IMG/VR virus record: IMGVR_UViG_3300048836_000254
Coordinates: 1 to 22,623 of that record
Reading direction: 5' to 3' (one strand)
Length of the DNA stretch: 22,623 nucleotides
Source of the DNA: a virus
This document shows, one piece after another, positions 1 through 19,334 of the stretch. The notes beneath the pieces are model-generated. The model was not told the origin of the DNA, did not search any database, and was given only the letters and a program-made list of their open reading frames with translations. The stretch's first letter is position 1; each line of letters opens with the position of its first letter. Both the position numbers and the translations under genes were made by a program.

Positions 1-201
1 GAAACCCGCGACACCATCGACGAGATCGCCAAGGATAGCGCACCATTGATTGCCGTCTTGAAAGACGCGAGGTCTGTGGACAACGTGTGGGAGTGACAGC
101 TCGGTGGCGAGGACCTTGAACGCTTCGGCGGCTTGTTGGACCGACGCGCTGGCCTCGCGGGCGGCGTTGACGACTTCCTGGGCGGTGTACTGGTCACCCA
201 C
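1..201 (-). CDS. Partial hypothetical phage protein, N-terminal 67 residues
   Basis: This minus-strand gene starts at a GTG (201-199) and is cut by the window edge. Its first 35 residues are an Ala- and Glu-rich helix (QEVVNAAREASASVQQAAEA). They are followed by the segment FQDGNQWCAILGDLVDGVAG, a pattern I recall from small phage proteins of unknown function in which QWCA..GD...GVAGFG is followed by a short helix. The GTG overlaps the TGA of the upstream gene by eight bases, which indicates translational coupling. A competing plus-strand reading through 1-96 is open but lacks this motif. Function is unknown; the gene call is fairly secure. Confidence 0.72.
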   Translation of the reverse strand, partial: MGDQYTAQEVVNAAREASASVQQAAEAFKVLATELSLPHVVHRPRVFQDGNQWCAILGDLVDGVAGF

Positions 202-454
202 GGAGCACCCCCGCACGAGCGGCCGCCGGTGACCACAGCTCGAGTTCGCCGAGCGTTACGGGGACGCCATCGAGTCGGATGGTCGATCGCAGGCCGTACG
301 GGAAGACGTACCGCTCGAGCATGGCGCGTACGGCGGTGTGGGGCTCGTGACCGGGGAGCGGCTTTTCGATCGTCTGGGTGTCGATCGTGATGCCGGCGTC
401 GGTCAACTCGACGTTGACGAAGCCGAGTTGGCGAGTGAAAATGTCGACTTGCAT
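194..454 (-). CDS. Hypothetical protein, 86 aa
   Basis: The start is the ATG at 454-452, because a GGAGG sits four bases upstream on the minus strand; a longer reading to 484 has no such site. The 86-residue product begins MQVDIFTRQLGFVNVELTDAG. It looks like a small alpha/beta protein with strands near residues 1-30, a helix around 40-52 (HTAVRAMLERYVF) and strands in 55-75. I recognise no family. It is the first gene of a leftward pair driven by the promoter-like site at 483-511, and its stop overlaps the GTG start of the next gene. Confidence 0.75.
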   Translation of the reverse strand: MQVDIFTRQLGFVNVELTDAGITIDTQTIEKPLPGHEPHTAVRAMLERYVFPYGLRSTIRLDGVPVTLGELELWSPAAARAGVLRG

Positions 455-482
455 AGTACCTCCGTGGTTGGGTATCGCGGGC

Positions 483-511
483 ATCGTACACCGGGGGCAA
501 GAGATGGTCGA
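483..511 (-). promoter_or_regulatory. Sigma-70-like promoter for the leftward gene pair
   Basis: On the minus strand TCGACC (511-506) is separated by exactly 17 bases from TACGAT (488-483). The -10 lies in a GTGTACGAT context shared with the site at 16392-16420. Transcription would start near 476 and give a leader of about 20 bases before the ATG at 454. Confidence 0.6.
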
Positions 512-652: not shown

Positions 653-892
653 TGGCACGGTATTTGTTCGACGAATCACGCGACGAATGGCACGCGATTT
701 GATTCGTACATTGTCGATGATTGGCACGCGATTTGATTCGTGATCGTGTCGAATCGACGCACGAATGGCACGCACATTGCACACGCGAAATGATCGACGC
801 ATGGCACGACATTTGCACACGACAATCGACGTGCCAACGTGACGCGATTTCGACACGTTGCATAATTGTCACACGTTGCAATCGACGTGCCA
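653..892. repeat. Seven-copy array of TGGCACG-N4-TTG elements
   Basis: Five copies lie on the plus strand (starting at 653, 688, 722, 766 and 802) and two on the minus strand (836-821 and 892-877). In all seven, TGGCACG is followed by exactly four variable bases and TTG. Copies at 766, 802 and 892 continue as TTGCA. This is the -24/-12 consensus of sigma-54 promoters, TGGCACG-N4-TTGCW. Plus-strand spacing is 35, 34, 44 and 36 bases. Alternative roles are origin iterons, partition sites or operators. The array is certain; its function is not. Confidence 0.8.
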
Positions 893-1380: not shown

Positions 1381-1704
1381 ATGATACGAAACGATAACAC
1401 AATGCGTATCGACGAATACGACGCGATGATGTTCGCACAATCACAATCGATCGCGTGCGAACAAGCGACAATGTTACAAATGATCGATTTGCTGCACGAA
1501 CGCATTAATACGATTCTCGAAACACACGCTGAACACGAACGCGATAATATCGTGATTCGTCGATTCATCGTAATGTACGATCAATTGTGCGAAATGTTCA
1601 CAACACTTGATCCGACGACGACACCCGTTATCGACGATGATGCGTTGTACGACGACGCGACGTTTCGTGATTTGTTGATCAAACACGCGAACGATGATCA
1701 ATAA
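1381..1704 (+). CDS. Small acidic helical protein of unknown function
   Basis: This frame encodes 107 residues from ATG 1381, or 100 from ATG 1402 (MRIDEYDAMMFAQSQSIACE). It looks more like a real protein than its upstream neighbour. It has a long helical segment (residues about 15-60 of the shorter form) with heptad-like hydrophobics, then an acidic tail containing VIDDDALYDDATF. It lies inside the AG/CT-poor block and shares its near-duplicate start region with the gene at 1040. A well-formed terminator (1721-1753) follows the stop, which supports a transcribed unit. No family recognised. Confidence 0.62.
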   Translation: MIRNDNTMRIDEYDAMMFAQSQSIACEQATMLQMIDLLHERINTILETHAEHERDNIVIRRFIVMYDQLCEMFTTLDPTTTPVIDDDALYDDATFRDLLIKHANDDQ

Positions 1705-3093: not shown

Positions 3094-3264
3094 ATGCGCC
3101 ACACGATTCACCAACTGTTGGCCCGTATGATCGAGCAACACGACGCGGCCAGCACCGGCCGACGCATGAACCCCGGCGAACGAGACAAACGCTGGCAATG
3201 CCGATGCCGACTGCTCAGGATTCAACGCTGGCTAGCGCCGGCCGCACCACTTCGGCGTCGATAA
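3094..3264 (+). CDS. Small basic hypothetical protein, 56 aa
   Basis: The frame starts at ATG 3094, four bases after the previous stop, with a GAGG about nine bases upstream. The product is basic, with an N-terminal helix (MRHTIHQLLARMIEQHDAA) and an Arg/Cys-rich end (RWQCRCRLLRIQRWL). Its last 50 bases overlap the 3' end of the convergent terminase-like gene. The gene is plausible from its position and ribosome binding site, but short and without a known family. Confidence 0.5.
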   Translation: MRHTIHQLLARMIEQHDAASTGRRMNPGERDKRWQCRCRLLRIQRWLAPAAPLRRR

Positions 3265-3847
3265 CCGCTCTGGCAGCGGCATCATCGCCACCGATGGCAG
3301 CCCTGGCGGCCTGGGCGAACTGCTCGGCCGTCAATTTGACCTCGATTCGGTCGGCATACCGCTCCCGGCGGTTGCCCTTCAGCAAGAACTGCGTGAGTGT
3401 ATCGTGATGAACCGTCTCGTAGCCGAGCAACTCGCCTGTCTTCTGGGACCACACCGGCCGCTTATGGCCGTGGATGGCCCGTTGCATGGCCGATTCTTCG
3501 AGCCGATCGACCACTTCCTCACGAATCGACCTGACGCACGCTTCGAACTCGGGCTCTTGGTCGCAAAGATCGCAAATGTACTTGCGAGACCAGCCGACCA
3601 GCTCGGCGGCCCGGGTCATATTGCCATGACATTGGCGCAAAGCGGCGAGAAAGTCGAGCCGGCGCTGCTCGGGCGACACGACACCGAGCCTTTTTTCGCT
3701 CAAAGGCCGCTTGCCGTGCTGCCTTCGGCCACCGGCGGCCGCCTTCACGACCTCTTTGGCAGCGGCCTCGCTCTTTCCGTACTTCTCGAACCGACGCGGA
3801 CCCCTTCCTTTGAGGTCCAAACCGTTGCCATCAATTCTGTCGGCCAT
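3215..3847 (-). CDS. Terminase small subunit-like DNA-binding protein
   Basis: I chose the ATG at 3847, because AGAGGTG lies about eight bases upstream; a frame start at 3934 lacks such a site. The 210-residue product has a basic N-terminus. A helix-turn-helix follows at about 66-100 (MTRAAELVGWSRKYICDLC within FLAALRQCHGN...EPEF), then a helix EEVVDRLEESAMQRAIHG. The pattern PVWSQKTGELLGYETVHHDTLTQFLLKGNRRERY comes next, with the acidic C-tail last. This order matches phage small-terminase-like proteins that recognise packaging sites. It lies about 105 bases downstream of the RuvC-like gene on the same strand. No large subunit is present in the window. A general HTH regulator is the alternative. 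Confidence 0.7.
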   Translation of the reverse strand: MADRIDGNGLDLKGRGPRRFEKYGKSEAAAKEVVKAAAGGRRQHGKRPLSEKRLGVVSPEQRRLDFLAALRQCHGNMTRAAELVGWSRKYICDLCDQEPEFEACVRSIREEVVDRLEESAMQRAIHGHKRPVWSQKTGELLGYETVHHDTLTQFLLKGNRRERYADRIEVKLTAEQFAQAARAAIGGDDAAARAVIDAEVVRPALASVES

Positions 3848-3952
3848 TGCTATACACCTCTTGTCTTTTGTGATGGCCGGAGCAGTAACTCCCTCAACCA
3901 TCACACTCATACCAAACACCAATACTACATCCAATGCTGGCGTAGCTCAGCA

Positions 3953-4474: not shown

Positions 4475-5131
4475 CGCATCACCGCCTTTCTTTCTTCCTC
4501 ACCGGCATGATCGCACAACCACCCCAACTGCCAGCCTCCCATCTACCATCATCCGCCCACCCCCGTCATCGCCCTCTTAGCCTTCGATCACACCCGCCCC
4601 CCAAACACATACACACCCAAACGCCCATTTTTCCGCGTTCGTCACCCAAACCAACGTCCACAGGCGAATGCGGATAATCCTATCTATCTATCCTAATACT
4701 CACCTAATAATCATCAAATCATCGATATCATCGTCAAATCGCCGTCGGTTTGGCTCCCGTCGCTCCCAACCCTCCGCGTTCACGCAATATTTTCATAACA
4801 AACCATCATGCCCAAACCATCACACCCAAACCAATCCCGAAATCGTCGAATGCGGATTTTTTCGCTCGAACGCGGACTTTTTTCGACCGTCGCGCCCAAA
4901 AAGGCCCCGACACGCAACCGCCCGATGTTCGCCTTTTGTTCGTATACCGCACTATCGCTCGCATACAAACGGCGTGCCAAACACCCCAAATACCGTCACA
5001 AACCGTCACAAAGATTTTATTTTATTTTCTTACCCTTTTCGTTTGAGTTCGTCGATATACGTGGCATCATTCATTGTGTCGATCGCGTGTGCGGCCGACA
5101 CCTCACCCAACCGCCTTGATAGGAGCATATC
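4475..5131. other. Gene-free divergent spacer with strand asymmetry and repeats
   Basis: No convincing gene lies in these 657 bases. The plus strand is C-rich and G-poor, with CTAT repeats near 4681. CCCAAACCA occurs three times (near 4647, 4808 and 4827) and CGTCACAAA twice near 4996. The core CGAAYGCGGAY followed by a run of six T recurs near 4850 and 4870, while the inverse core CCGCGTTC occurs near 4632 and 4777. A weak minus-strand promoter candidate (TTGATG, 16 bases, TAGGAT) lies near 4690-4720. Because the spacer separates divergent units, it probably carries promoters or an origin. Confidence 0.6.
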
Positions 5132-9990: not shown

Positions 9991-10383
9991 ATGCTCACTA
10001 TTACCACACCCGAGTGGTCGACGATCATCCACCGCGCCGCCGACACCCCCACGGATAGATATCGCCAATACACGTTGCGCTTCTTGAGTGCGGTCGAGCG
10101 TGACGTGGCGAGTGATGCACTGTTGCGGCTCACCGGCGAACGCCCCGACTCGTCGTTCATCATCGACAACGCCGAGCCAGCACCCGGCGTTCCGCCGTCG
10201 TGGCGCTTCGTGCTCCAGCTGGGTCATCCACAGTTGATGGCGCTTATGAACTACTGCGCCCTTGATCTCGAGTTAGATGGCAAGTCTTTCACCCAGCGCG
10301 TCGAGCAATCGTTGCACATACCCGCAGACATTCGGCGAGCACAAGTCGAAGCATACCGCCGGTTCGTAGGTGCGACACCATGA
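9991..10383 (+). CDS. Hypothetical protein, 130 aa
   Basis: I prefer ATG 9991 over ATG 9973, because GGAGAAGAG lies 8-12 bases upstream of 9991 and nothing suitable precedes 9973. Segments include LTITTPEWSTIIHRAAD, a helix RFLSAVERDVASDALLRL, a strand SWRFVLQLGHPQLMALM and the C-terminal helix DIRRAQVEAYRRFVG. No family recognised. Its stop overlaps the ATG of the next gene by four bases. Confidence 0.78.
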   Translation: MLTITTPEWSTIIHRAADTPTDRYRQYTLRFLSAVERDVASDALLRLTGERPDSSFIIDNAEPAPGVPPSWRFVLQLGHPQLMALMNYCALDLELDGKSFTQRVEQSLHIPADIRRAQVEAYRRFVGATP

Positions 10384-11033
10384 ACACCTTCTTACCGTAC
10401 GCTGACTTCGTCCAATCGGTGCGATCGCTCGACAAGTCGAGGCTCAACAAGCAACGATCCGAGTGCACTCAGATCTTCGCAGCACTCGACAACCCTAAAG
10501 GCGCGTACGGTCATCATCCCGCTGTGCTCATGTGGACTGCGTATCAATACGCGCTCGCCCACTATGCTCTTATGGTGTGCGATGAGTGCGATTGACGCGG
10601 GATCCTGGACAACGTGGGTTGGCGCTCGAAGTTTCGATACCGGGCGTTCGACCCCAACGACACCCGCACTTGTCCGTACGAGTTATCCAACCCGCACCCG
10701 CGCCGGCCGTGGTGGCTGGGCTTCGACGTGGTGCATGAAGGCTATCGACAGAACTTAGTCTTCAAAGACCCCGCGTACTACCGCATGATACGGCTCGTCC
10801 CTGACACTTCCGACGAGAAGCCGCCGTACGCATGGCCGGTGAGTAACGGTGAGTGGTCGTTGCTTGAATCTGACCATCCCGATACAACCCGTGTCCGTTT
10901 GATACGATACAAGCGTCCCCGTGTGATCGAGGGTCGTGTCTGGGGCGTCCGATCGCCATTTGGCGCTCAAGCATTATGCCTCGAAACGCGGGACAAGCGC
11001 CAGCAGAGAGTGCGCTGGTTGCTTCGAGTGTGA
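10380..11033 (+). pseudogene. MSMEG_6728-family protein interrupted by an in-frame TGA
   Basis: The first 71 codons (MNTFLPYADFVQSVRSLDKSRLNKQR, then GHHPAVLMWTAYQYALAHYALMVCDE) match the start of the MSMEG_6728-type family, which is often annotated as a pyrimidine-dimer glycosylase relative. A TGA stands at 10593-10595. The same frame then continues without a break through PWWLGFDVVHEGYRQNL and FKDPAYYRMI to PYAWPVS, which is the family's C-terminal half, and ends at 11033. The stop sits just before RG, where the family has a sense codon. Possible explanations are a nonsense mutation, a sequencing error or readthrough (TGA is followed by C). The extension after PYAWPVS is about 65 residues. 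The ATG overlaps the previous stop. Confidence 0.75.
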
Positions 11034-18320: not shown

Positions 18321-19334
18321 ATGGCAAAGAAGGTATCGAAGAAGACGGCCCGCAAAGCAGCGGGGGGCAAAGGTGACGCAGTGCTCGCCAAGCTCAGCGC
18401 CCTGAACGACACCTGGAAGAAGTCTCGCCCGGGTGGCGTGGATGTCGCTGAGGGCAAGTACCAGGTCAAGATCGAGGAGTACGCCCTCGATGAGACCGAG
18501 GCTGGCGACCTGGTCGCGGTTGCCAAGCTGAGCATCCTGTCGGGCGAGTCGAAGGGCCGAAAGCTCTACCATCGGGCGCGTCTTGTCGATGAGTCGAGCC
18601 TCGGCTGGTTCAAGGGTGATATGGAGAAGCTGGGTCTTCAGATCGACTCCATGGAGGATGTCCCGGCGGCGCTCGCCGAGCTCGTGGGCACCTACGCGCT
18701 GGTCGCCGTGAAGCACAAGGGCGAGCGTGACGATGGCCGCCCGTGGGTCAACGTCTACTACAACCAGGCGCTGGACGAGAGTGACATCGACGCCGACGGC
18801 GCGGAGGCCGAGGCCGAAGCGGAGGAGGAAGCTGAGGAGGAAGCCGCCACCACGAAGAAGACGTCGAAGAAGGCAGCGAAGAAGACCGCCAAGAAGGCGG
18901 CACCTTCGTGGAAGAAGGGTGCGAAGGTGCAAGTCAGCTTCGACGGCGATTGGTACCAGGGCACCATCACCGCGGTGAACACCGACGATGAGACTGCGAC
19001 CATCGACTTCGAGGATGGCACCACCGACGAGATTGCGTTCGGTGACATCGAGCCCATGGAGGCCGAAGCGGAGGAGGAAGCTGAGGAGGAAGCCGCCACC
19101 ACGAAGAAGACGTCGAAGAAGGCAGCGAAGAAGGCTGAGCCGTTGGCGCTCAACTTCGATGATGACAGCATCGACGACGACGCGATCGAGGCGCTTCGCA
19201 AGCTGGCGAAGAAGGCCAAGCTCGACCCCGACGACTACGCCACCTGGTGTGATCTCACGAAGGATCTGCTCGAGAAGGCGGGTAAGACGGGTGGATTCGA
19301 CACGATCGAAGACGCCATCGAAGCCCTGGCCTGA
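18321..19334 (+). CDS. DUF669-like ssDNA-binding protein with Tudor insert
   Basis: Residues about 41-150 (GKYQVKIEEYALDETEAGDLV..., then GESKGRKLYHRARL) match DUF669, a family found beside Sak4-like ATPases and thought to bind single strands. A Lys/Glu-rich linker (160-194) with histone-H1-like KKTSKKAAKK follows. A Tudor-like barrel comes next (195-245: VQVSFDGDWYQGTITAVN, then DFEDGTTDEI), then a second copy of the linker (246-272) and a helical end. The linkers are encoded by an identical 75-bp repeat. Whether the extra domains bind DNA or a partner is unknown. Confidence 0.78.
   Translation: MAKKVSKKTARKAAGGKGDAVLAKLSALNDTWKKSRPGGVDVAEGKYQVKIEEYALDETEAGDLVAVAKLSILSGESKGRKLYHRARLVDESSLGWFKGDMEKLGLQIDSMEDVPAALAELVGTYALVAVKHKGERDDGRPWVNVYYNQALDESDIDADGAEAEAEAEEEAEEEAATTKKTSKKAAKKTAKKAAPSWKKGAKVQVSFDGDWYQGTITAVNTDDETATIDFEDGTTDEIAFGDIEPMEAEAEEEAEEEAATTKKTSKKAAKKAEPLALNFDDDSIDDDAIEALRKLAKKAKLDPDDYATWCDLTKDLLEKAGKTGGFDTIEDAIEALA
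18810..18884 (+). repeat. 75-bp direct repeat, copy 1
   Basis: Identical to 19059-19133 over 75 bases and 249 bases apart (83 codons, so in frame). It encodes the acidic-then-lysine linker before the Tudor insert. Confidence 0.95.
19059..19133 (+). repeat. 75-bp direct repeat, copy 2
   Basis: Second perfect copy, after the Tudor insert. Recombination between the copies would remove 249 bases in frame and leave one linker. Confidence 0.95.

Follow-up and report, generated by a model that had tools for sequence, protein, structure and literature searches.

A compact array of sigma-54-type elements in a viral divergent gap, a possible docking or decoy site for host sigma-54

The -24/-12 promoter element of sigma-54 (RpoN) has the consensus TGGCACG-N4-TTGCW, and the sigma-54 holoenzyme bound there remains in a closed, inactive complex that an AAA+ activator has to open. 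Among the host programmes under sigma-54 control are nitrogen use, motility and envelope stress. In E. coli, the GG, T, G and C are the key positions for sigma-54, and most sites are occupied by inactive holoenzyme (PMC4591121). Decoy sites, offered in multiple synthetic copies, are able to titrate a regulator in the same species (PMC7826281).

The locus that we compare with these systems lies in a window of 22,623 nucleotides, i.e. the whole stretch of viral DNA that was analysed (IMG/VR record IMGVR_UViG_3300048836_000254). A preliminary description had claimed seven TGGCACG-N4-TTG elements at 653-892, five on the plus and two on the minus strand, and all seven are exact at those positions. 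The elements and the features around them are:

653 to 666, plus strand: element 1, TGGCACGGTATTTG followed by TT, without C-12, exact match
688 to 701, plus strand: element 2, TGGCACGCGATTTG followed by AT, without C-12, exact match
722 to 735, plus strand: element 3, TGGCACGCGATTTG followed by AT, without C-12, exact match
766 to 779, plus strand: element 4, TGGCACGCACATTG followed by CA, full consensus, exact match
802 to 815, plus strand: element 5, TGGCACGACATTTG followed by CA, full consensus, exact match; left half of a face-to-face pair
823 to 836, minus strand: element 6, TGGCACGTCGATTG followed by TC, without C-12, exact match; right half of the face-to-face pair
879 to 892, minus strand: element 7, TGGCACGTCGATTG followed by CA, full consensus, exact match
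4966 to 4979, minus strand: eighth, isolated copy, TGGCACGCCGTTTG followed by TA, without C-12, exact match
593 to 1796, both strands: block containing the array, depleted of GG, CC, AG and CT (23 observed against 294 expected)
620 to 632: palindrome TTTACATTGTAAA, left flank of the array
926 to 938: near-identical palindrome TTAACATTGTAAA, right flank of the array
194 to 484, minus strand: leftward ORF of 96 aa without family match, left bound of the gap
1040 to 1285, rightward: smaller, doubtful ORF
1402 to 1704, plus strand: rightward ORF of 100 aa without family match, within the depleted block

The array is like a sigma-54 promoter element in that all seven copies hold the ten fixed bases with the right internal spacing, GG (-25/-24) and TG (-14/-13) included, and in that three of them (766, 802 and, on the minus strand, 879) reach TTGCA, as had been claimed; the other four read TTGT or TTGA. 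It is unlike a sigma-54 promoter in having many copies on both strands of one gap, in the loss of C-12 from four of these, and in lying on a fragment in which no activator was found, and in having no gene start at promoter distance. The invariant spacing of the preliminary description holds for the internal N4 and does not extend to the distances between elements, which are 35, 34, 44, 36, 21 and 56 from start to start. Elements 5 and 6 (802 on the plus and 823 on the minus strand) face each other across a gap of 7. The eighth copy, which the earlier account lacked, sits in a second divergent gap, upstream of a ruvC-like gene and a terS gene, and when it is counted five of eight copies are without C-12. 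With the synthetic E. coli transcription-factor decoys (PMC7826281) the array shares the multiple site copies and the candidate titration of a regulator, and it differs from them in being natural, viral and putatively aimed at a sigma factor. Like TerS pac/cos sites and iterons it consists of short repeated sites in a non-coding gap, and related clusters lie near terminase genes; unlike those sites it has mixed strands, irregular spacing (21-56) and a motif shared by 48 TerL lineages.

It had also been claimed that GG is tolerated in the block within the elements only. On the plus strand 593-1797 indeed has no GG outside elements, and the avoidance is wider than was claimed, since CC, AG and CT share in it. 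In 593-915 all eight occurrences of these four dinucleotides lie inside elements and the remaining 225 bases have none, so that the elements persist in spite of the local avoidance; after 915, CC occurs outside elements at several places on the plus strand. Chance and a composition artefact were rejected by Markov nulls of orders 1, 2 and 3 (4000 simulations each, trained on the GG-poor block with the elements included), in which two copies were the most that any of the 12,000 simulated blocks of 1204 bp contained. A near-identical palindrome pair like that at 620 and 926 arose in 2.1% of simulated 360-bp regions. The depleted block, of about 1.2 kb, is non-coding in part and includes at least one plausible gene (1402-1704), and its avoidance of purine-G amounts to an absence of NGG and NAG. 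Avoidance of GG, CC, AG and CT to this degree was seen in no other fetched locus, and the idea that arrays generally go with GG-poor flanks was rejected across 227 loci (median percentile 0.51). An unrelated terminase-bearing contig carries a seven-site array (L046:2019-2256) in which most copies have TGAT instead of TTGC, and this TTGAT-type array sits in a stretch moderately poor in the same dinucleotides. Window-type TTGAT pairs elsewhere gave two matches, one an array (L263) and the other apparent coding sequence (L262).

The array occupies a divergent gap, with the leftward ORF starting at 484 and rightward ORFs from 1040 or 1402. Going right from the last plus element, the first ORF start met is that at 1040 (doubtful) or 1402, and for the minus elements it is the one at 484, past the plus elements; with no ORF start shortly downstream in the same direction, the array lacks the placement of a sigma-54 promoter. 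No sigma-54 activator (PF00158) was found in the window fragment, no initiator gene was recognised beside the array, and its left neighbours had no family match. No terL was recognised in the fragment either, which extends 0.65 kb to the left of the array. The terS gene at 3215-3934 (minus strand) reads toward the array. Its product has a Fis-type HTH match (PF02954), a fold that also occurs at the C-terminus of sigma-54 activators and that is probably ordinary for a terminase small subunit.

Several other features of the window were recorded. Four perfect tandem copies of CGATCAAGCG occupy 1801-1840, just upstream of an ORF at 1852, and 18321-19334 encodes an SSB-like protein with repeated lysine/alanine-rich tails that include two near-identical ATTKKTSKKAAKK stretches. 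A pyrimidine-dimer-glycosylase-like gene at 10380-11033 seems split (PF03013 match in 10380-10595, reading resumed in an ORF at 10614-11033), perhaps through a viral frameshift or an error of assembly; relatives of this gene were found in the array-bearing contigs L119, L140 and L245. The window primase is about 30% identical to those of Microbacterium phages and of IMG/VR relatives. Primase and helicase scans recovered no close relatives of the window, and the block had no DNA match in phage records. The 18 distant primase relatives (about 30% identity) hold three isolated copies of the motif and no array, and host inference from the other phage proteins of the window gave mixed taxa.

Clusters of the motif occur in over 100 other viral contigs. 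A search of IMG/VR for two same-strand copies 8-38 bp apart recovered at least 120 stretches; the complemented pattern, which served as control, gave 7. The columns outside the search pattern showed T before TGGCACG, A or G after it and TT in mid-spacer, and around TTG they showed C before, C after (85%) and then A or T; read from these columns, the cluster consensus is the textbook sigma-54 -24/-12 element. Of 255 single-mismatch neighbours within clusters, 1, 0, 1 and 0 deviated at the columns of GG and TG, and 86, 50 and 71 at those for C, G and C-12. The likeness to sigma-54 sites first noted in the window is supported by independent viral clusters that share the consensus, with GG and TG essentially invariant. 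We consider it probable that the window motif is a sigma-54-type binding site, whatever its role, and more probable still that this holds for the viral class as a whole. C-12, one of the five key positions, is present in three of seven window copies and in 85% of the copies in viral clusters (p = 0.012), and its absence from four suggests that the window array is a divergent member of the class or else is bound by something related.

With the clusters of other uncultured viruses (L087, L095 and L101 among them) the array shares the motif, the compactness, the divergent gap, spacings of 33-38 and 41-46, and one face-to-face pair of gap 7. It is unlike other viral clusters in that these keep C-12 in about 85% of copies and do not avoid GG, CC, AG and CT. 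A terL 1-2 kb away and transcribed away from the cluster would be typical of the class; none was recognised in the window fragment. Nine same-strand full-consensus elements, mostly at 26-28 bp spacing and facing an opposite-strand gene, lie at L101:1964-2250, and this is the clearest non-promoter-like tandem array found. L101 and L095 had no informative relative in the phage collection, and the terL of L087 resembles that of T5-like phages of Proteobacteria. Neither a sigma-54 activator nor RpoN was found in 50 array-bearing records, and the idea that the viruses carry their own was rejected.

Pairs that face each other with a TTG-to-CAA distance of 2-14 bp were found in 114 viral stretches and in none for the complement control. 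Their gap is mostly 5-9 bp, also in a set unselected for the face-to-face arrangement (54 of 69 pairs). Viral loci with the strict face-to-face form number 81, and 257 Gb of bacterial and archaeal genomes gave a single case, which lies inside an ORF; tandem pairs occurred in one of 369 whole genomes of one bacterial class. Tandem copies in other viruses are most often spaced at 24-28; other values found are 33-38 and 41-46, and these take in the window spacings of 34, 35, 36 and 44. Mixed clusters were arranged inward in 28 cases and outward in 14, in a set partly selected for face-to-face pairs. A hairpin or terminator role of the pairs was rejected, as their N4 arms are not complementary beyond base composition. 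The notion that the pairs are incapable of promoter use was likewise rejected: at a gap of 5-9 the predicted starts cross and the transcripts would run outward, so that pair geometry alone does not exclude transcription.

The position of the clusters was followed with crude gene calls in loci that were selected by motif and that come from related and unrelated viruses, and the statistics given here therefore describe the class and are not unbiased rates. In 50 whole array-bearing records the sites lie mostly in one compact locus. Ninety percent of 674 elements are outside ORFs of at least 200 aa, which span half of the sequence; the control motif occurred once. Gene calls based on codon usage put 76 of 116 intergenic clusters (66%) in divergent gaps, a class that makes up 111 of 713 gaps (16%) overall. 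The large-terminase (terL) family, whose identity was profile-confirmed on one member, is present in 119 loci and is transcribed away from the cluster in 114 of them, at a median of 1.65 kb; the same orientation was found in 45 of the 48 lineages obtained by grouping at 50% identity. No other neighbouring gene common to the clusters was found. The elements themselves are not co-oriented with terL (129 with it, 205 against it), and in co-directional gaps their orientation is random, unidirectional clusters agreeing in 9 cases and disagreeing in 8. Predicted starts are a median of 492 bp from gene starts, with 11% within 150 bp. Clusters are moderately enriched near contig ends (15 within 700 bp, 3.9 expected).

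The preliminary description had left the choice between a sigma-54 promoter cluster, a decoy that titrates sigma-54, origin iterons and operators. The distance between elements and genes, the orientation of the elements and the lack of an activator argue against ordinary promoters, and with C-12 missing from four of the seven window copies a simple promoter cluster is a poor fit. A more elaborate form of it, a bidirectional hub at which a host activator opens the host sigma-54 polymerase so that both divergent operons are transcribed, seems unlikely to us: divergent gaps hold 76 of 116 intergenic clusters, the window array and the eighth copy are both in such gaps, the flanking palindromes could be activator sites, and the crossing starts of tight face-to-face pairs would send transcripts outward without overlap, but the median of 492 bp to gene starts, the lack of co-orientation of the elements with terL, the 50 records without an activator, the C-12 loss, and the up to nine same-strand copies that L101 aims at an opposite-strand gene all speak against it. 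Another protein may be the binder, whether TerS (at a packaging site), a replication initiator (origin iterons) or a phage regulator (operators); we consider this unlikely, if slightly less so than the hub, and the resemblance to sigma-54 sites would then be convergent or come via a related DNA-binding domain. The location upstream of terL in 114 of 119 loci, the enrichment near contig ends, the sharp 5-9 bp gap that suggests a symmetric complex, the poorly kept C-12 of the window and the two palindromes that flank its array are in favour of such a binder. Against it, binders encoded by the phages would diverge along with them and would hardly share one motif across 48 TerL lineages; the consensus matches the sigma-54 element column by column, and the window terS is transcribed toward the array.

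It is improbable that the array acts as a silencer, in which parked closed complexes of the sigma-54 holoenzyme would cover the other promoters of the gap until late infection. Repression by sigma-54 where its site overlaps another promoter has been reported according to work cited in PMC4591121, and weak sigma-70-like matches are present in the region (839-866 on the plus strand), but these matches are at chance level (4 found, 2.7 expected), and at intragenic sites no roadblock effect was seen (PMC4591121). A functionless by-product of the block's composition, extreme as this is, has a negligible probability, since the elements hold exactly the dinucleotides that the block excludes, simulations gave two copies at most and an independent copy lies 4 kb away.

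Among the options put forward at the outset a decoy or docking array fits best, with the recurrence of the arrays in viruses and the poor fit of promoters in its favour, and we tentatively interpret the array as a non-coding docking or decoy array for host sigma-54. A conserved host ligand is suggested by the recurrence of the motif beside 48 TerL lineages. The host would have RpoN, which, alone or as RNA polymerase holoenzyme, would bind the array in the divergent gap; as the phage DNA multiplies, the sites would hold or titrate host sigma-54 and some of the polymerase, rather than initiate transcription, and sigma-54-dependent responses of the host would be damped. Several observations count against a decoy. 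Plain titration requires neither the position upstream of terL nor the 5-9 bp gap, and with such a fixed position and sharp pair geometry titration is perhaps not the whole story. C-12 is lost from four of the seven window copies, and the distant relatives of the window lineage, which are without the array, include phages of Microbacterium, an actinobacterium; actinobacteria generally lack sigma-54. For the class, it is possible, if short of probable, that unrelated phages convergently evolved compact arrays for host sigma-54, often with face-to-face pairs, upstream of their terminase genes, by which polymerase would be sequestered or docked, the window being a divergent member. Since bacterial genomes, prophages included, almost never show this geometry, the phages that carry the arrays are probably virulent ones.

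The sigma-54 element itself is known, and the recurrent viral array class is a regularity for which we found no published account in the open-access literature, a body that leaves subscription journals and preprints mostly outside. A weak, putative phage sigma-54-like protein mentioned in a phage paper (PMC7693777) is a different matter. If phages dock or titrate sigma-54 by DNA sites alone, this would be a simple, protein-free way of reprogramming the host and, if true, a counter-host device made of DNA only. Whatever the function, an array of sigma-54-type elements keeps a fixed place upstream of terL across many viral lineages, and bacterial genomes almost never carry one.
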